From positions 62,001-126,000 of the forward strand of contig NZ_ATWH01000009.1 of assembly GCF_000421145.1 (NCBI RefSeq): a stretch of DNA of 64,000 bases, in the 5' to 3' direction. The stretch comes from Glaciibacter superstes DSM 21135. GTDB taxonomy: Bacteria > Actinomycetota > Actinomycetes > Actinomycetales > Microbacteriaceae. How positions within the stretch are numbered: the first letter of the stretch is position 1; each line of letters opens with the position of its first letter. This document shows, in pieces, positions 19,596 through 36,133 of this stretch. The position numbers were made by a program, and so were the translations under genes. Under the pieces are notes generated by a model, which made no database searches, was not told the DNA's origin, and saw only the letters and a program-made list of their open reading frames with translations.

Positions 19596-19622
19596 GGATT
19601 GTGCTCCATTTCAGAACGTGAC

Positions 19623-19673
19623 TTGACTATATAGGCATTCATGATCTAGACCTAGCTAATGACATCGTTGTCA
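19623..19673 (+). promoter_or_regulatory. Promoter and LacI operator candidate O2 of the sugar importer
   Basis: TTGACT (19623-19628) followed after 18 bases by TAGACC (19647-19652) is a plausible promoter for the importer genes. Just downstream, TGACATCGTTGTCA (19660-19673) has TGACA/TGTCA arms and lies where transcription would start. The site matches O1 in inverted orientation with one mismatch, centre-to-centre about 79 bp, so looping between the sites is possible. Confidence 0.55.
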
Positions 19674-19708
19674 GGGATCGACAGATCCCCCGACCAAGAG
19701 GAAGTTCA

Positions 19709-20821: not shown

Positions 20822-20958
20822 TCGCATCCGTTTGAACCGGGGTGAACTGGTCACGTGAGCATCCGTTTGCGTGACCGGTTCACCCGCCACCCTCGCGTCG
20901 CCGCGTGGCGCCGCACACCTCGACCGCACGCATCCGCCCGACACCACCAGGAGTCCTC

Positions 20959-22939: not shown

Positions 22940-23971
22940 TCAGGGACTCATCGGGGTGATGAAGACCTTGTCGGCAACGCCGGCAGCCTGGGCCTCGAGC
23001 GCCTCCGAGAACCGGTCGAGAGAAAAGAATGCCGCATTCAGCCGATCAAGCCGTAACTCCCCCAGCATCGCCACAGCCCGCTGGTGGGTGTACGGGTTGA
23101 TGACCGATCCGACGATGCTCAGTTCCTTCTGGAAGATGTCACGCGGTGAGATCTGAGCGAAGTCCCCCGGCTTGCTCACCCCGAACACCATGATGCGCGC
23201 ACCGCGGCCCGCGGCCGCGACGGACTGCTCCACGATCCGGCCAGACCCGACCGCGTCAACAACCCGCCGGTATCCACGATGCTCGACAATCGACTCGAGT
23301 CGCTGCATGTCGGCCTCGTCGCCCGGGTCCAGCGCCACGTGCGCACCCATGCGCAACGCGAGCTCGCGCCTTCGCGCCGACGGCTCAACCACCACGATCG
23401 GCGTCAAGCCGCTCAGCCGCGCAAGGGAAACCAGGATGGCTCCCGCCGGTCCGCATCCGTATATCAGAATCGATTCACCCGAGATCGCGTCCAGCTGATC
23501 CATCGCATGAATGCAACATGCGACCGGTTCGGCGAGCGCACCGATCCACGGCGGGGTGTCATCCGGCAACCGGTAGAGGATGCGCGTTGGCACCACCATC
23601 CGCGTCGCCATTCCACCGTCGAGCTTGACGCCATACCCGCGCTTGCTGTCGCAGAGATGCTCCCTGCCCGCCCGGCAATAGGAGCAGCGCGTGCAATAGT
23701 CATGCGGCTCAACGGTGACAAGATCGCCGACCGCGATGCCGTCGCTGTCCCCCATGATTTCGACCACCCGCGCACAGACCTCGTGCCCGAGCACCACCCC
23801 GGGCGCTGCTTCGAAGTGCCCGGCCACGATGTGAGCGTCAGTGCCGCAGACACCGACAGCCAGCGGCTCGATCACACTCTCGCCATCGCGAGGCAGACTC
23901 CTGGGCTCCTCGGCAAGGGTCACATCATTGATCCCGTTGAAACGCAACGCGGTCATCTGGTCCGTCGTCAT
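22940..23971 (-). CDS. Zinc-dependent medium-chain dehydrogenase (sorbitol/threonine dehydrogenase-like)
   Basis: A 343-residue MDR enzyme with catalytic zinc residues in VCGTDAH and GHEV, the four-Cys structural zinc loop (CTRCSYCRAGREHLC, about 92-106) and the cofactor loop IYGCGPAGAIL. Such enzymes oxidise polyols or sugar alcohols to ketoses with NAD(P)+. It is the last gene of the long minus-strand sugar operon and overlaps the GntR gene by four bases. Together with a second MDR gene at 25542 it suggests that the imported compound is a polyol or that an intermediate needs two oxidations. Confidence 0.88.
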   Translation of the reverse strand: MTTDQMTALRFNGINDVTLAEEPRSLPRDGESVIEPLAVGVCGTDAHIVAGHFEAAPGVVLGHEVCARVVEIMGDSDGIAVGDLVTVEPHDYCTRCSYCRAGREHLCDSKRGYGVKLDGGMATRMVVPTRILYRLPDDTPPWIGALAEPVACCIHAMDQLDAISGESILIYGCGPAGAILVSLARLSGLTPIVVVEPSARRRELALRMGAHVALDPGDEADMQRLESIVEHRGYRRVVDAVGSGRIVEQSVAAAGRGARIMVFGVSKPGDFAQISPRDIFQKELSIVGSVINPYTHQRAVAMLGELRLDRLNAAFFSLDRFSEALEAQAAGVADKVFITPMSP

Positions 23972-24594
23972 TCCGCACCCTCCTTCAGTAGACCCGTCAA
24001 CCGGTGAATGTGCCGACGGGCAGCCTGCTCGCTGCCCTCCGGCTCTCCGGTGACGAGCACATCAAAAATAGCTCGGTGTTCCTCGACCGCCTGCTTCATG
24101 CCGCCGCTGACACTCGTCGACCGCATCGCAACGGCGACCTGCGCCTGAATCTCATCCAGCATCCGCAAGATGGTCGGGCTCCCTGCTGTGCGCCGAATCT
24201 CGAGGTGAAACGCCGCATCAACTTCGATATGCCGCAAAAAGTCACCGCGCCTCGCAACCTCGTCGTGCTCGCGAAGTATCCCCAGCATCCGTTGCCGCTC
24301 GTCTGTCCCGAAGCGCGGCGCGGCCAGTCGCGCGGCCATGCCCTCCAACGCTTCGCGTGCCTCGTAGAGACTGACCAACGCCGCCGGCGTGAACCTGGTC
24401 ACGACGGCGCCGCGGTTGTGGGTCTCCTGGGCCAGGCCCTCGCCGACGAGACCCATCACTGCCTCGCGAACAGGGCTGCGGCTCACGTCGAGTTCGCGCG
24501 CAATGGCGGGAACCGAGAGGCGAGAGCCCGGTTTCAGTTTTCCGCTGACGATCCGAAGGTGGAGAACCTCGTATACCGCGGAGCTGGCCTTCAT
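23968..24594 (-). CDS. GntR-family regulator, FadR/FCD subgroup
   Basis: A 208-residue protein with an N-terminal winged helix (LRIVSGKLKPGSRLSVPAIARELDVSRSPVREAVMGL, about 12-48) and an all-helical FCD ligand domain with probable metal-binding His in FLRHIEVDAAFHLEIRRTAG. These regulators sense small carboxylates or sugar acids. It is cotranscribed with the dehydrogenase genes, giving this cluster a second regulator beside DeoR. The start ATG follows the DUF2090 gene by about 45 bases. Confidence 0.9.
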   Translation of the reverse strand: MKASSAVYEVLHLRIVSGKLKPGSRLSVPAIARELDVSRSPVREAVMGLVGEGLAQETHNRGAVVTRFTPAALVSLYEAREALEGMAARLAAPRFGTDERQRMLGILREHDEVARRGDFLRHIEVDAAFHLEIRRTAGSPTILRMLDEIQAQVAVAMRSTSVSGGMKQAVEEHRAIFDVLVTGEPEGSEQAARRHIHRLTGLLKEGAE

Positions 24595-24639: not shown

Positions 24640-25545
24640 TTAGCCGGCCACACTGCTTGCCCGCTCGGGCTGGGGCGCCAGGAATGCCTGCACGAACTCA
24701 CGGTACTGCGAGGCGATCATGGCCTGGGCTTCATCCCGACGCTCGGGCTCGGCGATATTGAGCTGCACGGCGTCCCACCAGATGCTTCGGCCGATGGCGA
24801 ATCCGATGAAACCGCCTGCAGCAGCCCGGCCGAGCCAGCCCTTGACCGTGTCAGAAGGAGCACCTGCACCAAGCAGAATGCACTCGCTGTCTTGCTCCCT
24901 GGCGATTCGCACCGCGGCATCCGTTGACTCGACGGAATCCTGATGCTCCAACTTCCAGAGATCGACACCCACGCGAGCGCCGATCTCCTCCATCGCCTGG
25001 CGCGTCAGAAGGGGTCGCAGCTCGCTTTCGAAGCGAAGCACGTCACCGTCGACGGCGTGCAGCTGGCTCTGGGTCGGCGGAACCAGGAGCTCGAACAGGA
25101 ACGTTGCACCGGCGTCGCGACTGATGCGGGAGGCTTCAGCCAGCCGCTGCAGTTGCACGTCGTTCTGGTCGGCGTCGTCTTCGGTGTTGTACCGAACGAG
25201 CACCTTCGAGAATTCCGGCTCAAAGCGGGCGAGAAACCCGGCCAGATCGTCTGGCTCGGTTTCGTAGAGTGCTCGCCCCGCCCGCTCAATAGGCATGGCC
25301 AGACGGATGCCGCCTGCCGTCGCCCGCTCGGCTACCCCGGCACCCAGCTGTTCGTCGACAAGTATCGCGGCCGAACTGTCGCCGGCCGTTCGTGCCTGCA
25401 GCAGACCGTCAAGAACGAGGTGCTTCGCCTCGGTGGTGATAGCTCGCTCAGCCGGGGTGACGCCGCCGGTGTGGCCGAAGAGGGCTTTGGTCAGCCACGG
25501 TCGCTGGTCGACGGCGAGTATGAACAGTGGGGTGGGTGCGGTCAC
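24640..25545 (-). CDS. DUF2090 aldolase-like protein (2-deoxy-5-keto-gluconate 6-phosphate aldolase-type)
   Basis: The 301-residue protein opens with LFILAVDQRPWLTKALFG and contains AAILVDEQLGAGVAERATAGG, KVLVRYNTEDDADQN, LFELLVPPT, WKLEHQDS and a C-terminal GGFIGFAIGRSIWWDAV. This is the class I aldolase-like DUF2090 domain, best known fused to the kinase IolC in inositol catabolism, where it cleaves a keto-deoxy sugar phosphate. Here it stands alone, overlapping the downstream end of an MDR gene by four bases. It belongs to the same broad aldolase superfamily as the YihT-like protein at 34538, so the cluster encodes two distinct aldolases. Confidence 0.8.
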   Translation of the reverse strand: MTAPTPLFILAVDQRPWLTKALFGHTGGVTPAERAITTEAKHLVLDGLLQARTAGDSSAAILVDEQLGAGVAERATAGGIRLAMPIERAGRALYETEPDDLAGFLARFEPEFSKVLVRYNTEDDADQNDVQLQRLAEASRISRDAGATFLFELLVPPTQSQLHAVDGDVLRFESELRPLLTRQAMEEIGARVGVDLWKLEHQDSVESTDAAVRIAREQDSECILLGAGAPSDTVKGWLGRAAAGGFIGFAIGRSIWWDAVQLNIAEPERRDEAQAMIASQYREFVQAFLAPQPERASSVAG

Positions 25546-26579
25546 GAAACTGGCTCCTGGTTCTCATGCGGTCTGGTGGTTGTGGCACGGTTCTCGTGCG
25601 TGACGTATGGCTTGATGTACTCACCAGAGGTGAAGCGCTCGAACGTCTGGGGCAGCTCGTCGAGCGTTGTGGCCGACATGATTGCGTTCTGCAGCCGGGC
25701 GCCGTGGCGCCGCAACAGCTCCCAGTTCGCGTCGAGTTCGGCGTGCGGAAAGTAGAACGACCGCACAGTGAAACAGTCGGTTCTTCGCCACCGGGGGTTC
25801 GCCGGCATCGAATACGGTTCATTGGACTCGCCAAGGGCCAGGATGGCGCCGCCTGGTTCGGTCACGCGCTGCGCCAGTTCCCGGCCGGATGCCGAGCCAC
25901 TCACTTCGACGGCCATCTGAAACTGGTTGACGGTGTCGAGGTCGGTCGCCGGGGCGGCCCCGAGTTCCAGCGCCATCTGCAGGCGTTCCCGGTTCGGGTC
26001 GAACGCGTAGACCTTCTCTATGCCGAGTTCCTGAGCGACGGCGATCACGCCGAGACCCAACGGTCCGCACCCGATCACGAGCGCGGAGCTCACGTTTCCT
26101 TCCTGGGTACGGATACCCATCCGCAGGCCATGGGCCGCGGTACCGATCGTGTCGAGGCCGAGCACAGCGACCTCGAACGAGATGTCGTCTGGTATCGGGA
26201 AGGCACACTGCGCCGGGATGTCGACCAGGTCGGCGAAGCCACCGTCGACCTGCCAGCCGATCAGTTGTTCAAGCTGGAAGCAGCGGTTGGTCTGACCCTG
26301 CAGGCACGCCTTGCACTCACCACAGAAGACGGGAATGTAGACGAGCACACGCGCGCCGGTTTGCGGGTCGCCGACGGCGGCAGAGTCCACAACAGTGCCA
26401 GCCAGTTCATGGCCTGGAACGACCGGCGATCCGCTCTGAAGGAGGCGCTTGTCCGATCCGCACAGCGCGCACACCGCCACCCGCACCCGCAGCCACCCCT
26501 CCTTCAGCGGAGGCATCACCACATCTTCGAACTCGATAACACCGTCGCCACGGAACCTGGCCACTCGATTGGTTGTCAT
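25542..26579 (-). CDS. Zinc-dependent medium-chain dehydrogenase, second copy in the sugar operon
   Basis: A 345-residue MDR protein with catalytic zinc residues in ALCGSDKR and GHELAGT, a structural zinc loop CGECKACLQGQTNRC (about 89-103) and VIGCGPLGLGVIAVA as the cofactor loop. Only distant similarity is seen to the other MDR proteins in this window. It overlaps the permease gene upstream (26576-26579) and the aldolase-like gene downstream by ATGA-type junctions, so it is part of one transcript. The substrate is unknown; a polyol or sugar is likely from context. Confidence 0.88.
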   Translation of the reverse strand: MTTNRVARFRGDGVIEFEDVVMPPLKEGWLRVRVAVCALCGSDKRLLQSGSPVVPGHELAGTVVDSAAVGDPQTGARVLVYIPVFCGECKACLQGQTNRCFQLEQLIGWQVDGGFADLVDIPAQCAFPIPDDISFEVAVLGLDTIGTAAHGLRMGIRTQEGNVSSALVIGCGPLGLGVIAVAQELGIEKVYAFDPNRERLQMALELGAAPATDLDTVNQFQMAVEVSGSASGRELAQRVTEPGGAILALGESNEPYSMPANPRWRRTDCFTVRSFYFPHAELDANWELLRRHGARLQNAIMSATTLDELPQTFERFTSGEYIKPYVTHENRATTTRPHENQEPVS

Positions 26580-27418
26580 TTCACTGCGCCTCCGGTCAGT
26601 CCGCGGATCAGCCAGCGCTGGGCAACGATCGCCAGGATCAGCGCGGGCAGTGAGATGAGGGTGCTGGCAGCCATCAATCCGCCGTAGTCACCCGCGCCCT
26701 GCCCGATGAAGTTGAAGGCGATCACCGGCAATGGCATCGTGTCGGCGTTGGCGAGCGCCAGCGCGAACAAGAAGTAATTCCACGAGAAGATGAAACTCAG
26801 CGTGATCGCGACCGAGAGCCCGGGCGCCACCAGCGGCAGCACAACCTGCACGAATCTCTGCCACACGGAGCATCCGTCGATCATCGCGGCCTCCTCGAGG
26901 CTGCGGGGGATCTCTTCGAAGAACGGCACCAGCAGCCAAATGCACAACGGCAACGTGATGATCAGATGCGCCGCGATGAGAAGCAAGAAGTTCAGCGCAT
27001 CGTTCGACGGCGCCCCGACCGCGATCGAGAGCACAAACAGTGGCACAACGAACATCACGCCTGGCGCCATCCGGGCGAGCAGGGTGAAGAACCCCAGTCC
27101 GGCCAGCTTCCTGCGCACCACCACATAGGCCGCAGGCACCCCGAGAATCAGGCCGAGCAGCGTCGACCCGCCCGCGATGATGAAGCTGTTGCGAATGTAG
27201 TAGACGAAGTCGAAGCGCTCGAAGAGGTTCACGAAGTTCGACAGCGTGAGCGGCGTCGTGAAATCGAAAATGCTGCCGGTGATGTCGATATTGCGACGGA
27301 AGGCCGACCACAGCATGAACAGCACTGGCACAAAGAAGATCAGTGCCGCAACCACGTAGCCCACGTAGACCAGGGCGATCTTCCGGCGTTTCTGTTTCAC
27401 AGCACTTCTACTCGGCAT
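26576..27418 (-). CDS. Sugar ABC transporter permease, MalG type
   Basis: The 280-residue protein has six predicted membrane segments and the MalG EAA loop (EEIPRSLEEAAMIDGCSVWQRF, about 180-201). It opens with a basic tail (MPSRSAVKQKRRK) followed by YVGYVVAALIFFVPVLFMLWS. It overlaps the stop of the MalF-type gene (27408-27418). With that partner and the binding protein at 28363 it forms a CUT1-type importer. No ATPase gene is present in the operon, so a shared MsmK/MalK-like ATPase encoded elsewhere must energise it. Confidence 0.9.
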   Translation of the reverse strand: MPSRSAVKQKRRKIALVYVGYVVAALIFFVPVLFMLWSAFRRNIDITGSIFDFTTPLTLSNFVNLFERFDFVYYIRNSFIIAGGSTLLGLILGVPAAYVVVRRKLAGLGFFTLLARMAPGVMFVVPLFVLSIAVGAPSNDALNFLLLIAAHLIITLPLCIWLLVPFFEEIPRSLEEAAMIDGCSVWQRFVQVVLPLVAPGLSVAITLSFIFSWNYFLFALALANADTMPLPVIAFNFIGQGAGDYGGLMAASTLISLPALILAIVAQRWLIRGLTGGAVK

Positions 27419-28352
27419 TGGACTGCTTCCCTCTCAGCCAGGTGAATGCGCCGGCAACGATGATCACCAGAAAGAACAGGCTCAGCTGCAGCGCCGCCGC
27501 ATAGCTCGGGTCCTGGTCGATGAACGCGGCTGTGTAGCCGTACACGTTGAGGGTGTTCGTCGCGTTCACCGGCCCTCCCTGGGTCATGATGTACACGGTG
27601 TCGAAGAAACGCACCAGGTCGACGGTGCGCAGCAGCATCGCCACAGTCAGCACCGGGTAGAGCAACGGCAACCCCACGAACAGCGCCTTCTTGATGCTTC
27701 CTGCCCCGTCGATCACCGCCGCTTCGAACGGCTCAGAAGGCAGAGAACGGATGCCCGCAGCAATGATCAGCGCCATGAACGGCGTCCACTGCCAGATGTC
27801 GACGATCGCAATAGACCACGGCGCCATCTCGCGGCTTCCCAGCCACACCACCGGGTCTATCCCGATGGCCTCAAGTAGCTGGTTCGCCGCCCCGAGGGTC
27901 GGATCGTAGATCAGCAGCCAAACCAGCGCCACCGCCACCGAAGCAGTGATCGCAGGAATCAACATCAGTCCCTGAAAGATGGCACGACCGGGAACATCGA
28001 TGCTCAAAAGGTAACCAAGAGCCAGTCCGCCGACCGTCTCCACCACCAGGCACAACACGAAAAGAAAGAGCGTCACCCGAATCGAGTTCCAGAACTCCGG
28101 TTCGGCGAACATCGTCTGAAAGTTCGCCAAGCCGACGAAGCCGCTGTTCGACCCGTCGATCTTCCGGTCTGAGAGCGACAGCCAAATCGTGTAGAGAACC
28201 GGAAGCACCACAAGCAGGATGGTGACGATCAGCGCCGGCCAGATCAGGGGCATCACGCCCCTCGCCACCGGCTCTGGGGCAAAGCGCCCCCGTCTCCGCT
28301 GCAGCGACGGTCGTGCCGCTGCAGCGGATTCGGTTTTGGTGGTGGAGAACAC
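27408..28352 (-). CDS. Sugar ABC transporter permease, MalF type
   Basis: I place the start at the GTG at 28352, ten bases after the binding-protein stop; the longer open frame overlaps that gene. The roughly 314-residue product has a hydrophilic N-terminus, then six membrane segments (PLIWPALIVTILLVVLPVLY first) and the EAA motif SLPSEPFEAAVIDGAGSIKKAL. It pairs with the MalG-type permease. The ribosome site is weak, consistent with translational coupling. Confidence 0.88.
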   Translation of the reverse strand: MFSTTKTESAAAARPSLQRRRGRFAPEPVARGVMPLIWPALIVTILLVVLPVLYTIWLSLSDRKIDGSNSGFVGLANFQTMFAEPEFWNSIRVTLFLFVLCLVVETVGGLALGYLLSIDVPGRAIFQGLMLIPAITASVAVALVWLLIYDPTLGAANQLLEAIGIDPVVWLGSREMAPWSIAIVDIWQWTPFMALIIAAGIRSLPSEPFEAAVIDGAGSIKKALFVGLPLLYPVLTVAMLLRTVDLVRFFDTVYIMTQGGPVNATNTLNVYGYTAAFIDQDPSYAAALQLSLFFLVIIVAGAFTWLRGKQSNAE

Positions 28353-28362
28353 AGTCACCGGC

Positions 28363-29670
28363 TCACTTGGTGTCGAGGAGCGGCGTGAGCCCCTCCTGAA
28401 TTTCGGCCGCGGCCTGTTCTGCGGTGATCTCACCGAGAATGGCCTTGCCAATTGCGTCGCCGATCACCTTGCGCATCGCGGGAGCCTCGGCACCGACCGG
28501 CCCGACCTCGACAAACCCGTTGGCCTGGATGTCGGCGACGGCCTCGCCCCATTCCTTCTTGGCATCCGTGTCGAAGGTGTCGGTGTATTCGGGGTCAGCG
28601 GCAACGGAGTCACGAGGAGGGGCGATCTCGCCCTCGGTCAGCGCCAGCTGAATCTCTGGTGACGTCGCCCACTGCATGAACTCCCACGCGGCATCCTTCG
28701 ACTCGGAGAACGGCGACATGCCGATACCCCAGGAAAGCGCCGTCGGCGCCGCCTCGACGGAACCGGCCGGAATCGGCGCTACGCCCACCTGGTCTACGAC
28801 TGTCGAACTTTCACCGATGACGCTGTTCAGCTCGTTGCTGGATTCGAGTTCCATGGCGACCTTGCCCTGGGCAAAGAGGTTGGAAGACTCGGTGAAGGAG
28901 TAGTTGATCACTCCGGGAGGGCCGCAGTCACGGGCGAGCGTGGCGTACTCGTCGATCGCCGTTGCGGCAGCCGGGTCATCGAAGTTCGCCTTTCCGTCGG
29001 TCGTCCACGACAGACCTTCACCGTGGAAGAACGGGCCGAAGGTGAACGGGATGGCAGCAGAAGCGCCTCGAAGGGTGATCGGGATCATGCCGTCGCCCTG
29101 TTCTTTGATGGTCTTGGACACCTCGATCAGTTCTTCCATGGTTCCCGGAACCTTCAGTCCAAGCTCGTCGAAGACGTCTTTGCGGTAGTAGAGGACGGGG
29201 CCCTCGACGTTGATCGGAAGGGCGATGGTGGCGCCGTCTGCCTGCATTCCGTCCATGGCACCCGGCGAGAAGTCGGTCGCCTTGTAGTCCTCTGGTGCGC
29301 TCTCCAGGTAATCGTCAAGTTCTTCGTAGTAACCGGAAGAGGAGAACTGAGGGCCTTCCCTGGATGGCAGTGTCATGTAGACGTCCATGGCGTTGCTCTT
29401 GGACTGCAGGTTCAAGAGAATTTTGTCCCTGGCCTGCTGCTCGGCGAACGTCTGCACCTTGACCTCGATGCCGGATTCCTTCTCGAACTCGGGGATGAGC
29501 GGTTCGAGTGCTCGCTGCCACGGGTGGTTGGAGAGCACAACGGTGATGGTTCCCCCGCCTTCTGCATCACCTCCGCCCGCGTTGTCGCTCGGGCTGCCGC
29601 AGGCGGCGATCGACAGGACCATCCCGAGCCCGGTCAGTATGGCCAGGGACTTTCTGGTTGTTTTCTTCAT
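28363..29670 (-). CDS. Extracellular sugar-binding lipoprotein, family 1 (MalE-like)
   Basis: The ATG at 29670 has AAAGGAG 5 bases upstream and gives 435 residues. Signal peptide with lipobox (LSIAACGS), Gly-rich linker, then a family 1 solute-binding fold: ITVVLSNHPWQRALEPLIPEFEKESG, YYRKDVFDELGLKVPGTMEELIEV and APIPAGSVEAAPTALSWGIGM. It is the binding component for the MalFG permeases downstream. Ligands of the family include oligosaccharides, polyols and sulfoquinovosyl glycerol; the neighbouring YihT-like aldolase makes a sulfosugar worth testing. Confidence 0.9.
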   Translation of the reverse strand: MKKTTRKSLAILTGLGMVLSIAACGSPSDNAGGGDAEGGGTITVVLSNHPWQRALEPLIPEFEKESGIEVKVQTFAEQQARDKILLNLQSKSNAMDVYMTLPSREGPQFSSSGYYEELDDYLESAPEDYKATDFSPGAMDGMQADGATIALPINVEGPVLYYRKDVFDELGLKVPGTMEELIEVSKTIKEQGDGMIPITLRGASAAIPFTFGPFFHGEGLSWTTDGKANFDDPAAATAIDEYATLARDCGPPGVINYSFTESSNLFAQGKVAMELESSNELNSVIGESSTVVDQVGVAPIPAGSVEAAPTALSWGIGMSPFSESKDAAWEFMQWATSPEIQLALTEGEIAPPRDSVAADPEYTDTFDTDAKKEWGEAVADIQANGFVEVGPVGAEAPAMRKVIGDAIGKAILGEITAEQAAAEIQEGLTPLLDTK

Positions 29671-29699
29671 GATTTCTCCTTTGAAGGTGAAGATGCTTG

Positions 29700-30842
29700 T
29701 CACGGGTGTGAAAGCGGTGTTCGGATGAGCGGGTCAAGCCAGTCATAGAAAGTGGAGAGTTGTTGTGGGTCGCTTTCGCGCCACATTTCCGGCACCGCGC
29801 GCACGTGGCCGGCAACAGTCCCGAGCGAAATCGGCGTGAATGAGGCCACGTATGTCTCAGGGGCGGCGGTTGCAGAGTCGGCGACCTCGATTCCCACCAT
29901 GACGTCGGTGTGTTCGCCGCTGGTCAGCCAGGTGGCGGCGATCGCTCCGACTGTCTTCGCCTCTTCGGCGTCAACCGCACTGATTGCCGTGGACGCGGAT
30001 CGTTGGAGCGTGCCGATGACCTCCCCGCGCGCCGCGAAGCCGAGGTTCTCGCGAACCTCGCCGGCCAGCACCCGGGAGATGCCGCCTTGGATCAGGCGGG
30101 TGTGGTTCGTGTCATGCACCGGCTGGAGCGTCAGTTCGGGTGCCACACCTTCGCTCACGACCACGAGTGCACGACCGCGTTGTTCGACGATGTCCTCCAC
30201 CCTGGCGAGGAAATGCGGAAGCTCGAATGTCGTCTCCGGTATCAGAACCAGATCTGCCGCGAACTCCGGGTCGTGCCGGGCGTAGCTCGCGGCCAGAGCG
30301 AGCCAGCCGGTCGACCTGCCCATGGTCTCCACGATCCGCACCGGCTCGACGTTTCCCATCGCGGACTGGTCGCGCGCGAGATCTGTGACGGTGCGCGCGA
30401 GATAGCGCGCCGCGGATGCAAACCCCGGCGTATGGTCGACGCCGACGATGTCGTTGTCGATGGTCTTCGGAATGCCGACGCAGCGCAGCGCCATGCCCCG
30501 AGCACTGGCGGTCTTAGAGATCGCCTCGAGGAGTGCCATCGTGCCGTTGCCGCCGATGATCGCGAGGCCGTCCACCCGGTGGCGCACGAGGGTGTCGACC
30601 ATGGCGCTGAGGTCGTTCTCCCCCACCGAGAAACGCCCGCCGCCGAGCCAGGAACCGACCCTCTGCAATTCTGAACTTGAGACATCCGCTCGGGTGATCG
30701 CTCTGACCCTGTCGTTCAGCAACCCGGTGGCACCCCCGAGAATCGCCACCACATCGTTGCCGACGGATGCCGACAAAAAGCCGTCGAGGCTGCGATTGAC
30801 CACCGCAGTCGGGGCGCCGGTTTGGGCGATCGCGAGGCGCAT
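29700..30842 (-). CDS. PfkA-type phosphofructokinase homologue with altered nucleotide motif
   Basis: The 380-residue protein has the phosphofructokinase landmarks IAQTGAPTAVVNRSL, PKTIDNDIVGVDHTPGFASA (with the catalytic Asp region) and METMGRSTGW-type substrate loop. The expected GGDGS/GGDGT motif reads GGNGT (in IIGGNGTMALL), replacing the metal-linked Asp with Asn. That change and its place in a sugar-specific operon argue against housekeeping glycolysis. I infer that it phosphorylates C1 of a ketose or sulfoketose such as 6-deoxy-6-sulfofructose, to feed the YihT-like aldolase. It lies 3 bases after the aldehyde dehydrogenase gene. Confidence 0.85.
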   Translation of the reverse strand: MRLAIAQTGAPTAVVNRSLDGFLSASVGNDVVAILGGATGLLNDRVRAITRADVSSSELQRVGSWLGGGRFSVGENDLSAMVDTLVRHRVDGLAIIGGNGTMALLEAISKTASARGMALRCVGIPKTIDNDIVGVDHTPGFASAARYLARTVTDLARDQSAMGNVEPVRIVETMGRSTGWLALAASYARHDPEFAADLVLIPETTFELPHFLARVEDIVEQRGRALVVVSEGVAPELTLQPVHDTNHTRLIQGGISRVLAGEVRENLGFAARGEVIGTLQRSASTAISAVDAEEAKTVGAIAATWLTSGEHTDVMVGIEVADSATAAPETYVASFTPISLGTVAGHVRAVPEMWRESDPQQLSTFYDWLDPLIRTPLSHP

Positions 30843-30844
30843 GA

Positions 30845-32338
30845 TTAGACCCGCACTTCCGCGACGGTGTGAAAGGACTGGAACGCTTCCAGACCCTTAA
30901 GCCCGCCTTCGTATCCCATGCCGGAGAGCCCGAGGCCGCCGAATGGTGCACCCGGGTAATTCGGAGTGGCGTTGTTGATTCCGATGATTCCAGCGCGCAT
31001 CCGCTCTGCAACCCCCCGAGCGCGATCGAGGTCGGTGCCGCACACGTAGCCGGCCAGGCCGTAGCCCGTTGCGTAGTGCAGGGCGAGCGCCTCCTCGACG
31101 TCGTCAAAGACGTGGATGCCGGCGGCCGGCCCGAAGACCTCTCCGGCGAAGAGTGCCGAATCGAGCGGAACGTTCTTCACGAATTGCGGTGAGACATAGT
31201 TGCCGGCGGAAGGAACCGACCTGCTCGCGACCAGGGCTTCTCCACCCTCGCGGATCGCGTCATCGACCAGGCGGGTGATACGTGTCGGGTCCTGTGCCGG
31301 TGCGAGCGGGCCAAGGTCGATGTCGGCCTCCCGCGGGTCGCCGATCGTGAGGGCTGCGGTCTTCTCGGTCAGGAGCGAGAGGAACTCTTCGCTGATCGAG
31401 CGAGCCAGGAACACCTGGTTGGCCGCGATGCATGACTGCCCGTTGTTGCGGAACTTGGCGATCATCAGGGTGTCGACGGCGTGCGCGACGTTCGCGTCGC
31501 CCAGAACAACGAAGGGTGCGCATCCGCCGAGTTCCATCACTGCCGGGAGGAACCGATCGGAGACCGCTGCCGCGACGAGGCGACCGACGCGGGTGGAGCC
31601 GGTGAAGGTGACGGCGCGCACCCGCTCGTCGGCGAGCCACAGGTCGGCCACCTCGTCAGGGTCTCCAAGAACGGTGTTGACGACACCGGTTGGGAGATGT
31701 TCGTCAAGCAGCCGGGCGAGCACCATGGAGGAGAGCGGGGCGAGCTCAGACGGCTTGAAGACGGCGGTGCAGCCGGCCGCCAGCAGCGGCGCGATCTTGC
31801 GTGCCGGGATGGACACCGGGAAGTTCCAGGGCGTCAGTACCGCAACCACGCCGAGCGGGCGGGGTGAGACGCGGTGTGTGAAACCGGGGACCGCGCGAAA
31901 TTCTTCTTCTGCCTGGTTCTCGAGGAGCTGCGCGAAGGTGGTGAAATACACGGCAGAGAGTTTCAGCTCTGCGGCGGCTTCCGGGGTGCGCTTACCAGTC
32001 TCGGTGGTGATCAGCCCGGCCCACTGCTCGTGGTTTGCGGCGTCGGATAGTCCGGCTGCGATCCGGCGCAACGCCGTGGCCCGTTCTGCGGCTGGGGTCG
32101 CGCTCCACGTCGGAAGGGCACCTTCTGCGGCGCGCACGGCGGCGGCCGCATGGTCAGCGTTGCCGTATCCGACCTGGGCGATGGCCGTGTTGTCGGTCGG
32201 ATTGAGGAGCGTTCGGTGCTCGAGGCCTTCAGAGACAACCGCACCATTGATCCGGACTCCGGACGCCTGGCTCAGCACGCCGGCAACCCAGTCTTCGCCG
32301 AAAGTGGTTGCGGTCGATGGGGATGATTCGATGGTCAC
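30845..32338 (-). CDS. NAD(P)-dependent aldehyde dehydrogenase, GabD-like
   Basis: A 497-residue ALDH with TPWNFPVSIPARKIAPLLAAG, FTGSTRVGRLVA, the catalytic Glu in MELGGCAP and catalytic Cys in NNGQSCIAANQ, plus the late EVFGPAAGI and GLSGMGYEGG motifs. It is closest in style to succinate-semialdehyde dehydrogenases. In sulfoglycolytic pathways GabD-like enzymes oxidise sulfolactaldehyde to sulfolactate, and this gene sits between the kinase and the enolase-superfamily gene of such a candidate cluster. Its start overlaps the upstream stop by four bases. Other aldehydes cannot be excluded. Confidence 0.9.
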   Translation of the reverse strand: MTIESSPSTATTFGEDWVAGVLSQASGVRINGAVVSEGLEHRTLLNPTDNTAIAQVGYGNADHAAAAVRAAEGALPTWSATPAAERATALRRIAAGLSDAANHEQWAGLITTETGKRTPEAAAELKLSAVYFTTFAQLLENQAEEEFRAVPGFTHRVSPRPLGVVAVLTPWNFPVSIPARKIAPLLAAGCTAVFKPSELAPLSSMVLARLLDEHLPTGVVNTVLGDPDEVADLWLADERVRAVTFTGSTRVGRLVAAAVSDRFLPAVMELGGCAPFVVLGDANVAHAVDTLMIAKFRNNGQSCIAANQVFLARSISEEFLSLLTEKTAALTIGDPREADIDLGPLAPAQDPTRITRLVDDAIREGGEALVASRSVPSAGNYVSPQFVKNVPLDSALFAGEVFGPAAGIHVFDDVEEALALHYATGYGLAGYVCGTDLDRARGVAERMRAGIIGINNATPNYPGAPFGGLGLSGMGYEGGLKGLEAFQSFHTVAEVRV

Positions 32339-33504
32339 AGGGTCTCCTCAAAGTCGGACAGTGATTCAAAGTCGATGTGCACGCCCAGGCCCGGGCCTTG
32401 CGGAACGAGTACGGTGCCGTGATCGGTCAGCACGTGGCCGATGGGCTCCCTGAGGCGATTGGAACGGATGTCCCACTCGACCCACGGGGTGGTGGGATTG
32501 GCGGCTGCGACCTGCAGCGTCGCCGCGGTGGCGAGGGCGCCGTTGTACAAGTGGGGCGCGACAAGAGTGCCTCGCGGGGCCGCGTACTGCACCACTCGCC
32601 AGTAGTCGGTCACGCCGCCGACCTTGCTCACGTCGGGCTGCACAATACGGATACTGGGCTGGTCGATGTAGTCGTGGAATGCGGCGGCGCCGTACAGGTT
32701 CTCTCCGGTCGCCACCGCGAGGCCCGCGGCCTCACCGAACCGGGAGAGTTCGCCTGCATCGTCGCCGGCGATCGGCTCTTCGATCCACTCAACGCCGAAT
32801 TCCGTGAGCACCGGCGCCATGGCGAGGGCCTCGGAGGGCGTCCAGGCCTGGTTGGCGTCGGCGAAGAGGCGCGCTTCGTCTCCGAGCACACGCCGCGTGG
32901 CGGCGAGGTTGGCCTCATCCGTTTCTCGCCCGAAGCCCACTTTGACCTTCACCGCGTGGATGTTGAGCTCGAGGCAGGTGTGCGCGGTCGCCTCGACGCC
33001 GGTCGGCCCCAGACTCGAGGCATAGACCGGAAGTTCTCCCCGCGTTTCAGAAGCCAGCAAGCGGCCGAGGGGCACACCGCGTTCTTCTGCCGCTCGTGTC
33101 CAGAGGGCGACGTCAACTGCGCTGATCGCCTGGCGGATCGGCCCAGGTGCTCCCCATTGGCGCCCAAGCGCACCGAGCCGTGTTGTCATCAGGTCGTGAG
33201 CCTCGGACGTGCTGGTGAATGCCTCGCCGACAAGCAGCGGGGCTACGCCGTGTTCGACGGTTGCCCGGCGCTCCTGCCAGGCCCACGACGGGTAGTTCGC
33301 CCAGGTCTCGCCCGCTGACGAGGTTCCGTCCTCAAACTCCAGCTCGATGACCACCATCACGCGGTGGGTGAGCGGAGCGAACGACATTGCGACGTTGTCG
33401 GTCGACGGCGCCCGGAAGACACGACAGTGCACCCTCCTGATGGGCACTCCCGACAGCGGCGCGGAGACGGCCGGTGTGGTGATTGAATGTGCGGTTTCGA
33501 ACAT
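32335..33504 (-). CDS. Mandelate racemase/muconate lactonizing (enolase) superfamily enzyme
   Basis: From the ATG at 33504 the protein is 389 residues: an N-terminal capping domain, then the TIM barrel with KVKVG (catalytic Lys pair), DANQAW, EEP and GENLYG metal ligands, DVSKVGG and the terminal APHLYNG His. Members dehydrate or racemise sugar acids, acid sugars or amino acid derivatives. It is first in the operon, with a promoter whose start site coincides with the ATG. A sugar-acid or sulfosugar-acid dehydratase or epimerase role is possible, but the precise subgroup cannot be told from sequence by eye. Confidence 0.85.
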   Translation of the reverse strand: MFETAHSITTPAVSAPLSGVPIRRVHCRVFRAPSTDNVAMSFAPLTHRVMVVIELEFEDGTSSAGETWANYPSWAWQERRATVEHGVAPLLVGEAFTSTSEAHDLMTTRLGALGRQWGAPGPIRQAISAVDVALWTRAAEERGVPLGRLLASETRGELPVYASSLGPTGVEATAHTCLELNIHAVKVKVGFGRETDEANLAATRRVLGDEARLFADANQAWTPSEALAMAPVLTEFGVEWIEEPIAGDDAGELSRFGEAAGLAVATGENLYGAAAFHDYIDQPSIRIVQPDVSKVGGVTDYWRVVQYAAPRGTLVAPHLYNGALATAATLQVAAANPTTPWVEWDIRSNRLREPIGHVLTDHGTVLVPQGPGLGVHIDFESLSDFEETL

Positions 33505-33510
33505 TGCATG

Positions 33511-33540
33511 CAGTCTGCCGGGATCTGAAGCCGATGTCAA
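33511..33540 (-). promoter_or_regulatory. Promoter of the enolase-superfamily operon, probably leaderless
   Basis: TTGACA (33535-33540), an 18-base spacer and AGACTG (33511-33516) on the minus strand place the start of transcription at or next to the ATG at 33504. No ribosome site precedes that ATG, which fits a leaderless mRNA. Confidence 0.5.
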
Positions 33541-33638
33541 CACCACGCTACGAACCTGCGAGGGTGCTGGCAACATCCGTCGCCTGCGGCAACAAACCGT
33601 CTACTGCAACATCGAACCGTCGCGAGACGACCGCGACG

Positions 33639-34436
33639 CTAGAGTGCGATGAGAATCTGCGCGCCGGCCTGCCGAATGGCAGCAGAGAGCTCGGGCGCGA
33701 GTGCCTGGTCAACCACAACGGCGTCGAACACATCGAGTGAGCACACCCGAACCGCCCCACTGGTCTCCTGCTTCGAGGCGTCGCACACCAGGATCACTTC
33801 GTCGGCAGCCTCGATGAGCGCCTGCTTGACGGCGAGCTCCAGGCTCGTATGCACGTAGACGCCGCGACTGTCGATGGAGCTGGCGCCCACGACAAATGTC
33901 TGTATCCGAAGATTGCGAATCGAGGAGACGGCCTCCGAACCGACCATTGCCTGGTTTTGGTGCAAGAGATCACCGCCGAGCCCGATGACCGGGATGTCCG
34001 GCCGGCCGAGCAGCGTTGCCAGCACGGGCACGGAGTGCGAGACGATGGTTCCCCTGAAGTCCTCTGGGAGCTGAATCGCCGCCTCAAGTGCCGTCGTGCC
34101 CGCGTCGATTCCGACGGTTCCGTCTAGGGGCAGCAGGCCGACGACCGCGGCACCGATCCGCCGTTTGGCCGACGCCTGCTCGACCGCCCGAACCGAGAAC
34201 GCAGCCGGTGTGTGTCGATCCTGAGGCAACCGCGCGCCGCCGTGCACAAGACTCGCCGCGCCTTCACTGGTGAGTTGGCGCAGGTCTCTCCGAATGGTCA
34301 TCTCGGAGACTTTGAAATCTGCGCTGAGCGCCGAGACGGAGACATGGCCCGTTCGATATAGGCGCTGCAGGATCTCGGATCGCCGGATCGAACCGGGACC
34401 GACATGCAGGGAAGTCTTCGTCGCGGCCACAGCCAC
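33639..34436 (-). CDS. DeoR/GlpR-family transcriptional regulator
   Basis: A 265-residue protein with the DeoR winged helix (RRSEILQRLYRTGHVSVSALSADFKVSEMTIRRDLRQL, about 18-54, including the VHGGA element) and a C-terminal sugar-phosphate sensor (GIDAGTTALEAA, VIGLGGDLLHQNQAMVGSEA, DEVILVCDASKQ). Start is a GTG at 34436 without a clear ribosome site. It is divergent from the YihT-like/TauE pair and precedes the operon beginning at 33504, a position like that of the DeoR-type regulator in the E. coli yih locus. A sugar phosphate from the pathway is the likely inducer. Confidence 0.9.
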   Translation of the reverse strand: MAVAATKTSLHVGPGSIRRSEILQRLYRTGHVSVSALSADFKVSEMTIRRDLRQLTSEGAASLVHGGARLPQDRHTPAAFSVRAVEQASAKRRIGAAVVGLLPLDGTVGIDAGTTALEAAIQLPEDFRGTIVSHSVPVLATLLGRPDIPVIGLGGDLLHQNQAMVGSEAVSSIRNLRIQTFVVGASSIDSRGVYVHTSLELAVKQALIEAADEVILVCDASKQETSGAVRVCSLDVFDAVVVDQALAPELSAAIRQAGAQILIAL

Positions 34437-34451
34437 ATGCTACGACATGAC

Positions 34452-34497
34452 TTGATCTCTGACTGTCGTTGATGTTAGATTCCGAACATTGTTTTCG
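34452..34497 (+). promoter_or_regulatory. Promoter and DeoR-type operator candidate upstream of the YihT-like gene
   Basis: TTGATC (34452-34457), a 17-base spacer and TTAGAT (34475-34480) form a good promoter. Immediately downstream CGAACATTGTTTTCG (34483-34497) has CGAA/TTCG inverted arms, the kind of half-site used by GlpR/DeoR regulators. Confidence 0.5.
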
Positions 34498-34537
34498 ATT
34501 TGGCCGTGAGTGCCATACGTCAGGAGCGTGTTCTTCC

Positions 34538-35401
34538 ATGTCAGATGCCCGTGTGCTTGCTCGTCCATCCGGAGGATTCGCGATGCTGGCCGTTGACCAG
34601 AGAGAGGCGCTCAGGGCCATGATGGCCGTCGGGCGCCCCGGCGAGGTCAGCGACGCCGACCTGACCCGTTTCAAGGTGAGCGCGGCGAAGGCGCTGAGTC
34701 CACACGCGTCCGCAATCCTCATCGACAAGCAGTTCGGATGGGACGCCGTCGTTGGCGCGTCGGTTGTCGATCCGTCCTGCGCGATGATTGCGGCTGTGGA
34801 CGCGTTCACACCGAGCAAGCACGAGTTCGTGGCGGAGTCCGTCATCGACGAGGAGCTGGACTTCGCCGAGCTGAAGCGCCAGGGCGCGAAGGCACTGAAG
34901 CTGCTGGTACTCTGGCGCCCCGACACGGACCCGGAGGAGCGCGTCGCGATGGTTGACGACTTTGTGGCACGGTGCCGCACGCACGACCTCGTCAGCGTGG
35001 TCGAACCGGTCTCGCGAGGGCGCCGTGACAAGGCGGCATCCGACCTGGAAGCAGGCATCCTTTCGGCGGCTCGCGAACTCGGCGACCGCGGCGCCGACAT
35101 CTACAAGTCCGAAGTGCCGACCCATGGCACAGGGACCGACGCCGAGATCGACGCGAAATGCCGCGAGCTGACCGATGCGATCAACGGGCAGTGGGTGGTG
35201 CTTTCGTCGGGTGTCGACGCAGAGCGCTTCCCCGAGGTGGTCGACGTCGCCTGCCGCGCAGGCGCCTCCGGCTTCCTTGCGGGTCGCGCGGTGTGGGCAT
35301 CTGTCGTCACGCATGACGACTGGGACTCGGAGCTCGAGCGCGTTTCGATTCCGCGCCTCGAGCGCCTGGCTGCGATCGTCGACGATGCGGTAACGCGCTA
35401 G
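34538..35401 (+). CDS. Class I aldolase, probable 6-deoxy-6-sulfofructose-1-phosphate aldolase (YihT-like)
   Basis: From the ATG at 34538 the 287-residue protein aligns along its whole length, from memory, with E. coli YihT: PSGGFAMLAVDQREALRAM, LTRFKVSAAKALSPHASAIL, KALKLLVLWRPDTDPEERV, ELGDRGADIYKSEVP and AGASGFLAGRAVWASVV. Lys190 (GADIYK) would form the Schiff base and Arg250 (LAGRAVW) corresponds to the Arg that contacts the sulfonate of sulfolactaldehyde. LacD tagatose-bisphosphate aldolases share the fold but, as I recall, match much less well. The reaction would yield DHAP and sulfolactaldehyde. A TauE/SafE exporter gene follows 9 bases later. Confidence 0.82.
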   Translation: MSDARVLARPSGGFAMLAVDQREALRAMMAVGRPGEVSDADLTRFKVSAAKALSPHASAILIDKQFGWDAVVGASVVDPSCAMIAAVDAFTPSKHEFVAESVIDEELDFAELKRQGAKALKLLVLWRPDTDPEERVAMVDDFVARCRTHDLVSVVEPVSRGRRDKAASDLEAGILSAARELGDRGADIYKSEVPTHGTGTDAEIDAKCRELTDAINGQWVVLSSGVDAERFPEVVDVACRAGASGFLAGRAVWASVVTHDDWDSELERVSIPRLERLAAIVDDAVTR

Positions 35402-35410
35402 CCTCGCCGC

Positions 35411-36133
35411 ATGCTGCTTGCGCTGGCACTGGTGGCCGTTCTGGCCGGCGCAGGCCTGCAACGGATGACGGGGCTGGGTTTCGCGCTCGTCTCCGGCCCT
35501 GTGCTGGTGTTGTTGCTTGACCCAATCAACGGCATCTCGCTCGCCAATCTCCTCTCCGCCATCACCGCAGTGACCGTGCTTGCGACCACGTGGCGTCACA
35601 TCGACTGGCGTTTGGCGTGGCAACTGTCGCTCGGCATCGCGATCGCCGTGGTTCCCGGTGCGCTCGTGGTGCACTCCCTGCCGCGGCCGTGGCTCCTGAT
35701 CCTTGTCGGAGCGTTGACCGCGGTGGCTGTTGCCGTGGTCATGGCCCGACGGCCACTGCGGCTGCTGCGAAAACCGGGCGGGGCGGTTGTGGCGGGTCTC
35801 GTGTCGGGTTTCAGCAACGTGACCGCGGGCGTCGGCGGCCCGGCGCTGGCGGTCTATGGAGCAAGCACCGACTGGCACTCGAAGACGTTTGTGCCGACGG
35901 TGCAGGTTTCCCTGTTGCTGGCGAACGTGTTGTCGCTGGTGTCGAAGCAGCAGTTGACCCTTCCACCGGCGATCGTGCTGGCGGCCGTCGGGGCGGTGGT
36001 GGCCGGCATCCTCGTCGGGTCGTACATCCAGCGCTGGGTCGATCACTCGCTGGCCAGGCGACTCGTTCTCGTCATAGCGCTGATCGGCGCGCTCGCGTCG
36101 GCCGGCAAGGGTCTCTTCGAGCTCTTGTCGTAG
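35411..36133 (+). CDS. TauE/SafE-family sulfite/organosulfonate exporter
   Basis: The 240-residue protein is almost entirely hydrophobic with seven to eight membrane segments and the family's two-fold repeat. The halves are marked by AGAGLQRMTGLGFALVSGPVLVLLL near the start and AGLVSGFSNVTAGVGGPALAVYG in the middle. TauE/SafE proteins export sulfite, sulfoacetate, sulfolactate or related C2-C3 sulfonates. It is cotranscribed with the YihT-like aldolase, which strongly suggests export of sulfolactate or another sulfonate end product. No other sulfur-metabolism gene is adjacent. Confidence 0.88.
   Translation: MLLALALVAVLAGAGLQRMTGLGFALVSGPVLVLLLDPINGISLANLLSAITAVTVLATTWRHIDWRLAWQLSLGIAIAVVPGALVVHSLPRPWLLILVGALTAVAVAVVMARRPLRLLRKPGGAVVAGLVSGFSNVTAGVGGPALAVYGASTDWHSKTFVPTVQVSLLLANVLSLVSKQQLTLPPAIVLAAVGAVVAGILVGSYIQRWVDHSLARRLVLVIALIGALASAGKGLFELLS

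Follow-up and report, generated by a model that had tools for sequence, protein, structure and literature searches.

Sulfoglycolytic pathways and the Glaciibacter superstes locus

In the accessible text of three reports (PMC9594981, PMC12890257, PMC13372026), the Embden-Meyerhof-Parnas form of sulfoglycolysis (sulfo-EMP) always starts with an isomerase. Here, we examine a gene cluster of Glaciibacter superstes DSM 21135 that contains a YihT-like sulfosugar aldolase and no such isomerase, and that lies in a 64,000-nucleotide stretch (the window) of contig C9 in a genome of 4.8 Mb. The sulfo-EMP set of Arthrobacter AK01/AK04, judging from the accessible part of its description (PMC8873060), shares with it the YihT aldolase, a GabD-like aldehyde dehydrogenase that in the window is a candidate sulfolactaldehyde (SLA) dehydrogenase, an ABC importer, TauE (in AK04), and a DeoR-type regulator (in related loci). 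Unlike that set, the window lacks YihS, GH188, and YihV, the last replaced by a PfkA-type kinase, and adds two zinc-dependent medium-chain dehydrogenases (MDR1 and MDR2), a DUF2090 aldolase, a GntR regulator, and an enolase-superfamily enzyme (ENO); the predicted end product is sulfite, whereas it is sulfolactate in Arthrobacter.

Two further systems, each known from part of the respective paper, are related in other ways. The sulfo-EMP2 pathway of Bacillus urumqiensis (PMC9594981) has in common with the window an enzyme of the PfkA family (PF00365), there a sulfofructose (SF) kinase, and the oxidation of SLA, predicted for the window, whereas the window encodes a class I YihT instead of the class II SqiA and its cluster has neither the SqvD isomerase nor YihQ. 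The sulfofucolytic Entner-Doudoroff (ED) pathway of Paracoccus wurundjeri (PMC12421959) shares TauE and, with what is proposed for the window, complete use of the sulfosugar carbon and sulfite release. Its cluster also has an enolase-superfamily enzyme, a kinase next to an aldolase as a pair, and an MDR named “threonine dehydrogenase” to which no function is assigned. There, the enolase-type SfcF dehydrates sulfogalactonate and SuyAB releases sulfite after racemization, with S-sulfolactate proposed to need racemization by SlcC/ComC before SuyAB. In contrast, the window genome has no SuyA/SuyB pair, and the cluster has no short-chain dehydrogenase (SDR), lactonase, or PF03328- or 2-keto-3-deoxygluconate (KDG)-type aldolase. 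The Paracoccus “threonine dehydrogenase,” which is induced and lies near the kinase-aldolase pair, did not oxidize SLA, and a role like that proposed below for MDR1 would fit it.

A candidate pathway for sulfonated sugar alcohols

The explanation that we rank first, tentatively, is that the cluster would degrade a sulfonated sugar alcohol completely by way of MDR, kinase, YihT-like aldolase, aldehyde dehydrogenase (ALDH), ENO acting as a lyase, and TauE. The substrate would most simply be a 6-deoxy-6-sulfo-hexitol, taken up by the CUT1 importer. MDR1 (perhaps also MDR2, for an epimer) would oxidize it to a 6-sulfo-ketohexose, so that neither an aldose-ketose isomerase nor a sulfoquinovosidase would be needed. 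The PfkA-type kinase would phosphorylate C1 of this ketose, and the aldolase would split the sulfoketose 1-phosphate into dihydroxyacetone phosphate (DHAP) and SLA, which ALDH would convert to sulfolactate. ENO would then take the alpha proton of sulfolactate and expel sulfite from the beta carbon to yield pyruvate, and TauE would export the sulfite. What we infer in this scheme is which compound is the exact substrate, what the kinase makes, that ENO acts as a lyase, and what the DUF2090 aldolase does.

A genome scan with the aldolase returned 147 relatives, and the locus results given here cover the best 80 of these 147, with genes called at a 60-bit threshold against reference proteins over a range of about 10 kb. 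An isomerase (YihS or SqvD) is present in 63 of the 80 loci, none of which has an MDR, while 16 of the 17 isomerase-less loci do have an MDR and the 17th is a cut contig with neither. Sulfoquinovosidase (YihQ or GH188) follows the same division (61/63 isomerase loci versus 0/17 isomerase-less loci), and mutarotase and MDR never occur together. Fisher's test gives a P of 6e-16 for the mutual exclusion of isomerase and MDR, with kinship ignored. The isomerase/MDR label changes three times on a quick tree of 59 aldolases, two of the changes being forced by starred branches; this tree contains roughly every second isomerase-type row, the others having been thinned out, and locus L119 is labeled with the isomerase group although no isomerase was seen there. 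Pieces of other genomes that span 3.8 kb are too short to judge the presence of isomerase or MDR.

The clusters with an MDR vary in their kinase (PfkA or PfkB), their importer (CUT1 or MFS-type), and the end of the pathway, where ALDH is present or, in Propionivibrio, a YihU-like reductase. By their sequences, MDR, kinase, and YihT form the constant core. The MDRs of the window are of the sorbitol/threonine dehydrogenase type. We conclude that an MDR probably replaces the isomerase; in the simplest chemistry for this core, it would oxidize a sulfonated polyol and so supply kinase and aldolase with their sulfoketose. Among these clusters, that on plasmid pB of Cereibacter sphaeroides 2.4.1, a familiar laboratory strain (L115, 5367-10780), has a tartrate dehydrogenase gene between ALDH and aldolase (550.6 bits, over the cut-off), for which a malate-like oxidation of sulfolactate is conceivable.

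The same counts bear on a different explanation, namely sulfo-EMP for sulfoquinovose (SQ) or another sulfo-aldose, with the isomerase encoded elsewhere in the genome, sulfolactate exported by TauE as the end product, and MDR, dehydratase, and second aldolase serving another sugar. The combination of YihT-like aldolase, GabD-like ALDH, and TauE matches the Arthrobacter set as far as its description is accessible (PMC8873060), and PfkA-family SF kinases are known in sulfo-EMP2 from the accessible part of PMC9594981. Still, we regard this explanation as unlikely, given that the 17 isomerase-less clusters contain no isomerase, sulfoquinovosidase, or mutarotase, and that the genes that would be superfluous are conserved in order with the core. 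No SQ isomerase (YihS or SqvD) was found in window-type clusters, and the G. superstes genome itself offers only a 24-bit PF07221 match (SqvD was searched in the cluster, not genome-wide) and no close match to GH188 (best 53 bits, 28%; GH31 was not searched genome-wide).

An earlier note, made from the letters of the window alone, had proposed an SQ-type sulfosugar route. Its YihT aldolase, SLA oxidation, and TauE export are supported, while SQ as the substrate is not supported by the distribution of MDR, sulfoquinovosidase, and mutarotase. It was correct that the cluster contains no YihS-like isomerase or sulfoquinovosidase, and its guess at a variant pathway proved apt, the variant being an isomerase-less, MDR-type YihT cluster. 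The dehydratase and two dehydrogenases that it had set aside as extra turn out to be conserved parts of the unit, and this dehydratase, ENO, may be a C-S lyase.

Conservation of the cluster

Gene order from the DUF2090 aldolase to YihT is the same in six relatives (L005-L009 and L011), with about 47-80% identity, in the hosts Paractinoplanes and Micromonospora (Micromonosporaceae), Microbacterium sp. MPKO10, and Haloactinopolyspora. TauE is present in all of L005-L009 but not in L011, and L010 is truncated where its contig stops. Orthologues of MDR2 (54-63%) are neighbors of the cluster in 6/6 window-type genomes (10 genomes searched). One further full copy was found (L122), together with three reduced ones: L123 keeps importer, MDR1, PfkA, YihT, DeoR, GntR, and MDR2; L125 keeps importer, MDR1, PfkA, YihT, and DeoR; and L124 has ENO and DUF2090 aldolase without ALDH or TauE, and its aldolase gene is broken. 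Importer, MDR1, kinase, and YihT stay together in reduced clusters with either a PfkA (L123, L125) or a PfkB kinase (L012-L014, L041), and the reduced variants show that this core and the ENO/ALDH module can separate. In L125 (7969-11270, genome G019), a TctABC-type importer directly adjoins the reduced MDR-type YihT cluster (TctA 323 bits).

TauE adjoins YihT in 8/12 PfkA-type clusters (window included) and also in L015, L016, and L075, so that exporter and aldolase are conserved together, as the sulfosugar proposal had required. Two separate sugar pathways in one place were considered and set aside as the main explanation, since gene order and gene set are conserved across families. In a class sample of 394 genomes, the aldolase had no match at 1e-60 in the two congeners listed or in 18 further members of the family on that list. 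Of the plasmid records returned by the searches, 4/23 for YihT and 13/44 for ENO were examined.

The YihT-like aldolase and its partner enzymes

Sequence comparison clearly places the aldolase with the sulfofructose phosphate (SFP) aldolases: its matches to solved members reach 280.9 bits (7ag1), 268.3 bits (7ag7), and 268.2 bits (YihT, 1to3), while the next-best solved match is a DUF2090 protein at 68.2 bits and LacD enzymes score at most 61.5 bits. The YihT likeness noticed earlier therefore stands, as does the presence of Lys190 and Arg250, which occur without exception in the three aldolase groups compared (69 mostly isomerase-type rows, including the broken window-type copy L095; 13 window-type rows, 9 of them distinct; 13 other MDR-type rows, 12 of them distinct). 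The two residues are not diagnostic, however, because both also occur in two distant paralogues, and Arg250 was rejected as a sulfonate signature. Columns S11, D129, and S224 differ in both paralogues and are kept in all window-type rows.

These scores also bear on an ordinary polyol or tagatose pathway, in which the aldolase would act on unsulfonated ketose phosphates and TauE would export another anion. It would agree with the LacD-family fold, with the sorbitol/threonine dehydrogenase type of the MDRs, and with the binding protein of the CUT1 importer, whose best match among solved structures is a sorbitol-binding protein (111.9 bits); the third is the SQ-glycerol-binding SmoF (82.8 bits). 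The gap between SFP and LacD scores demotes it to a weak rival, and with TauE as a neighbor and an ALDH that groups with those of SQ clusters, we consider it very improbable.

Regarding the ALDH, a quick tree joins the window enzyme, other ALDHs from actinobacterial ENO loci, and 13 ALDHs from SQ clusters in one group (SH-aLRT 97) set apart from eight other ALDHs, and within this group the 13 SQ-type and 14 ENO-linked enzymes are sister groups; L119 and L094 are labeled as SQ group though no isomerase was seen there. For RlGabD, two Arg residues have been proposed to bind SLA (PMC10599462, accessible in part); the window ALDH has both, and generic ALDHs in the same alignment share them.

The kinase is nearest to a pyrophosphate-dependent phosphofructokinase-like NCBIfam subfamily, at 272.5 bits just under the cut-off of 273. 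Its GGNGT and PKT[IV]DND motifs occur in 11/11 rows, window included, the Asn of GGNGT being present in every one; E. coli PfkA reads GGDGS at this position. The YihV (PfkB) SF kinase had no match at 60 bits in L005-L011, and the window has a PF00365 kinase.

The DUF2090 aldolase, present in every full PfkA-type copy, is a stand-alone open reading frame (ORF) of 301 aa without an IolC kinase fusion; in inositol users, the DUF2090 deoxy-ketogluconate-phosphate aldolase is fused to IolC kinase (PMC9007349, accessible in part). Its Lys, Lys/Glu pair, and GR motif are conserved and DHAP-aldolase residues are kept, and it probably acts on an epimeric sulfoketose phosphate, although this substrate is a guess.

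ENO as a candidate sulfolactate sulfo-lyase

Enzymes of the enolase superfamily bind a carboxylate through Mg2+, abstract the alpha proton with a base, and eliminate a group from the beta carbon. Water cannot leave 3-sulfolactate in this way because its hydroxyl sits on the alpha carbon, and the beta carbon bears no leaving group other than the sulfonate; acting on sulfolactate, ENO would thus either release sulfite (via enolpyruvate, then pyruvate) or racemize its substrate. We put forward, also as a tentative proposal, that the enolase superfamily holds a C-S lyase family that would convert sulfolactate to pyruvate and sulfite and would be used after an isomerase-free sulfo-polyol EMP pathway as well as in free-standing modules for C3 sulfonates brought in by importers, in both Actinobacteria and Proteobacteria. 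This family possibly takes the S enantiomer without the SlcC/ComC racemase step, and with bases on both faces ENO could bypass racemization before desulfonation. In the open-licence literature, we found no enolase-superfamily or mandelate-racemase enzyme that acts on C-S bonds or releases sulfite from sulfolactate or another organosulfonate.

ENO has the catalytic set of mandelate racemase (KxK, Asp/Glu/Glu metal ligands, and Asp-His). Two capping loops carry the motifs [SA]F-x5-R and GE-x-[WF]-x-N-x-P, present in 28/28 rows of the ENO clade and in 0/8 other superfamily rows, and in a careful tree of 33 a starred branch separates these 28 rows from the rest. The underlying alignment has 36 rows, three of which were left out of the tree; it leaves out the repeats L001, L085-L087, L121, L131, L132, and L134-L136, the cut L010, and pieces of less than 300 residues, including the broken L163. 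ENO and ALDH trees agree in placing the SsuABC modules described below with L015/L075 (starred in both) and the window type with L149 (not starred). PDB 3ddm, a solved protein of the mandelate racemase subgroup titled only “putative,” shares KxK, the D-E-E metal site, Asp, His, and the capping-loop motif with ENO. Plasmid ENO records from Thioclava, R. tumorigenes, Caballeronia, Halostagnicola, and Bosea fall outside the motif clade (13 examined). In Streptomyces sp. ODS25 (L149, 7743-10129), two mandelate-racemase-type genes lie back to back, one in the motif clade and one not.

From its sequence context, this ENO subfamily is linked to sulfonate-type importers, TauE/TSUP exporters, and SLA-type ALDHs in Actinobacteria and Proteobacteria. 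(Gene names in L149-L158 and L120 come from sequence reading and from phmmer against annotated or profiled neighbors, not from record annotation.) Five genomes of the window's class share a module in which a GntR gene and an SsuABC-type importer, with all three importer genes found in each genome, accompany a beta-hydroxyacid dehydrogenase, ENO, and ALDH. In Bradyrhizobium and Variovorax, ENO lies beside the same importer family (SsuA 280-291 bits), the Bradyrhizobium locus also having a GMC oxidoreductase. Regulators similar to the GntR/FCD regulator of the window match at 135-168 bits in L149-L158.

Other units combine importer, MDR, UgpC, kinase, aldolase, (ALDH), SDR, ENO, and TauE/TSUP: two Shinella records, Rhizobium CC-CFT758, and Neorhizobium NCHU2750. 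ALDH is annotated in Shinella only, the aldolase is of the LacD/PRK12858 type and not YihT, and the Neorhizobium exporter is annotated as hypothetical (PF01925 73.3 bits). The MDRs of these rhizobial units match MDR1 at 246-252 bits, and the binding proteins match at 291-303 bits in the two records that show them. Genes for formylglycine-generating enzymes and sulfatases adjoin rhizobial ENO clusters (L160, 8001-15870; L163, 9927-15875; L166, 9935-15898), as do SsuC-like permeases in L163 and L166, and the use of sulfate esters may be linked to these clusters.

A further alternative accepts the core pathway as proposed but takes ENO for a sulfolactate racemase or epimerase, with TauE exporting sulfolactate. 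The opposing bases (KxK and His-Asp) are both conserved in the ENO clade, and a SuyAB-like pair in some ENO genomes could be fed by a racemase. However, ENO is the only enzyme seen beside importer and exporter in the unit of Sulfitobacter sp. THAF37 (TctABC | LysR-TauE-ENO) and beside the importer in that of L152 (a GntR match, TctABC, and ENO), which fits a lyase and not a racemase alone. Units in which no enzyme other than ENO was seen with importer and exporter thus favor sulfite release over racemization, and we consider the racemase decidedly improbable. In the Sulfitobacter record (L164, 3150-13899), fumarase and succinate-dehydrogenase-like genes follow this unit, and the conversion of sulfosuccinate to fumarate and sulfite would also fit.

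At E 1e-80, ENO was found in 10/394 class genomes, comprising all 6 MDR-type genomes identified in the sample (4 in the cluster, 2 elsewhere) and 4 of the 388 others. The ten ENO counts in the 80-locus comparison include L016 (19.6 kb), a motif-negative distant relative. In 11 MDR-type genomes or records, the cluster itself lacks ENO; of these, 5/5 actinobacteria have ENO elsewhere, and the single Cereibacter plasmid record has none.

SuyAB-like pairs in ENO genomes

The sole PF04295 protein of the G. superstes genome is a fused, galactarate-dehydratase-like ORF of 522 aa with a SAF domain, and a PF04295 search found no separate SuyA/SuyB pair in this genome. Similarly, PF04295 is represented only by long ORFs (at least 513 aa) in 6/14 other ENO genomes and is absent from 4/14. 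The remaining 4/14 (G019, G090, G164, and G217) hold SuyAB-like pairs, consisting of a SAF protein of about 100 aa and a PF04295 protein of 387 or 382 aa; in most cases, the small SAF-type ORF lies directly before the shorter PF04295 protein. Some pairs adjoin genes for a D-2-hydroxyacid dehydrogenase and for an Ldh_2 protein, the latter with L-sulfolactate dehydrogenase as its top NCBIfam assignment (202 of 500 bits). The idea that ENO stands in where SuyAB is missing is consequently not general. Because of these four genomes, we lowered our confidence in the sulfo-polyol pathway and in the C-S lyase family from one common, already tentative level, slightly for the former and slightly more for the latter.

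Two YihT clusters occur together in the Haloactinopolyspora genome (G164), which is that of L011 (identical aldolase). The SQ-type cluster contains SqvD, YihV, YihT, the SuyAB-like pair, and ALDH, and the MDR-type cluster contains MDR1, PfkA, YihT, ENO, and ALDH, representing two candidate solutions to the same last step. The former (L172, 3200-12600, contig C1), in which SqvD, YihV, and YihT are joined to the SuyAB-like pair and ALDH, is likely a complete SQ mineralization cluster in an actinobacterium.

Evidence for other roles of ENO

Several findings weigh against the sulfo-polyol pathway or against ENO as its lyase. In genomes with SuyAB-like pairs, ENO would be a second lyase or have a different function. 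NCBIfam names for ENO are those of sugar-acid dehydratases, and the split that defines the ENO clade carries a long-branch warning. No such ENO was found in the MDR-type genomes of 4 Acetobacteraceae and 1 Propionivibrio, and two of the five ENO copies found elsewhere in actinobacterial genomes are ambiguous Prauserella copies. L011 and L124 carry ENO without TauE, L124 also lacking ALDH. The ALDHs of Shinella and Cereibacter are among the eight outside the SLA-type group, and one SsuABC-module binding protein matches SsuA at 123.7 bits, below the cut-off of 163.5, and resembles solved binding proteins for nitrate, taurine, and sulfonate only weakly. Beyond the 80 loci, the division between isomerase and MDR is less clean: five longer loci with more distant aldolases (45-48%; L127-L130 and L159) and the plasmid locus L117 show neither isomerase nor MDR, L116 has an MDR at a distance of 7 kb, and L119 lacks an isomerase but has an ED-type gene set together with a GH188-like gene. 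The open-licence literature yielded no report that sulfo-hexitols occur or are catabolized, although other names are possible. Paracoccus seriniphilus also does not fit: there, ENO is paired with a GMC enzyme, a TRAP importer, an ALDH, and a SulP transporter lie in the vicinity, and YihT was not seen.

Close ENO relatives (48-49%) in two Prauserella genomes and in G368 lie beside an L-arabinonate-dehydratase-like gene (799 bits in the Prauserella gene scanned, cut-off 882) and a generic ALDH, a context that suggests a sugar-acid role for ENO there. An apparent Nramp-like transporter in Prauserella was a reading from sequence and was discarded, as the called ORF has no Pfam match. An ordinary sugar-acid dehydratase is retained as a rival function. 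In a mixed ED/EMP pathway, ENO would dehydrate a sulfo-aldonate, the product would go to the DUF2090 aldolase or to a different enzyme for cleavage, and YihT would serve a parallel sulfoketose branch. SfcF (PF13378/PF02746), of the same superfamily as ENO, is a proven sulfogalactonate dehydratase, and its cluster has a PF00294 kinase and a PF01791 aldolase, according to the accessible part of PMC12421959. On a plasmid of Arthrobacter sp. YA7-1 (L119, 4066-12134), an SDR, a dgoD-like dehydratase, a DapA-type aldolase, and a lactonase are combined with PfkB-YihT-ALDH-TauE, which makes this actinobacterial locus an ED/EMP hybrid. This dgoD-like gene, however, belongs to a different subfamily from ENO (54 bits, motif absent). 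Moreover, the genes of the window cluster include no KDG-type aldolase, SDR, or lactonase, none was noticed among the L015 ORFs read, and the DUF2090 enzyme keeps DHAP-aldolase residues. We thus consider the mixed pathway rather improbable.

Layout of the cluster

The unit comprises 13 genes (Table 1) and is larger than the region first reported (28363-36133), within which genes and order are as described in the earlier note: the aldolase lies between DeoR and TauE, and the assignments of ALDH, PfkA-type kinase, and CUT1 importer hold. The left boundary was set at 22940 because MDR2 orthologues adjoin the cluster in window-type genomes. Eleven genes, from MDR2 through DeoR, are on the minus strand, and the aldolase and TauE genes are on the plus strand. 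The gene of permease 1 probably starts later than called, its ORF overlapping the binding-protein gene. For a DeoR-YihT operator, only one imperfect 9-nt inverted pair was found.

Table 1. Genes of the G. superstes cluster, with positions in the window
Gene product	Positions	Strand	Remarks
MDR2, zinc-dependent medium-chain dehydrogenase	22940..23971	-	PF08240/PF00107
GntR/FCD regulator	23968..24594	-	Similar regulators close to ENO in ten further loci
DUF2090 class I aldolase, unfused	24640..25545	-	PF09863 65.9 bits
MDR1, proposed sulfo-polyol dehydrogenase replacing isomerase	25542..26579	-	In every PfkA-type copy not cut by contig end
CUT1 ABC importer permease 2	26576..27418	-	PF00528
CUT1 ABC importer permease 1	27408..28451	-	PF00528
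Solute-binding protein	28363..29703	-	Best solved match sorbitol-binding protein
PfkA-type kinase, proposed sulfoketose 1-kinase	29700..30842	-	PF00365; GGNGT and PKT[IV]DND motifs
ALDH, proposed SLA dehydrogenase	30845..32338	-	Groups with SQ-cluster ALDHs
ENO, enolase superfamily, mandelate racemase subgroup; proposed sulfolactate sulfo-lyase	32335..33576	-	PF13378/PF02746
DeoR-family regulator	33639..34436	-	PF00455/PF08220
YihT-like class I sulfoketose-1-phosphate aldolase	34538..35401	+	Matches to solved SFP aldolases
TauE/SafE exporter, proposed sulfite (or sulfolactate) exporter	35411..36133	+	PF01925 82.5 bits

Just left of the cluster, positions 18540-22802 hold a separate LacI-type regulator and a CUT2-type sugar ABC importer; among the few relatives examined, none showed an evident counterpart of this importer to the left of MDR2. 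Elsewhere in the G. superstes genome (L004, contig C19), matches to a DeoR-like regulator, a LacD-like aldolase (38%), and a PfkB-like kinase lie together as a paralogous set.

Implications for sulfoglycolysis

If the sulfo-polyol pathway is correct, sulfonated polyols would be an added class of sulfosugar substrate, with an isomerase-free entry into sulfoglycolysis. ENO would represent a new family of enzymes able to free inorganic sulfur from sulfolactate, which arises in the breakdown of plant sulfolipid, and 3ddm, a solved structure of unassigned function, would gain a testable one. Organisms supposed to excrete sulfolactate, or not counted as desulfonating since they lack SuyAB, could then mineralize it.

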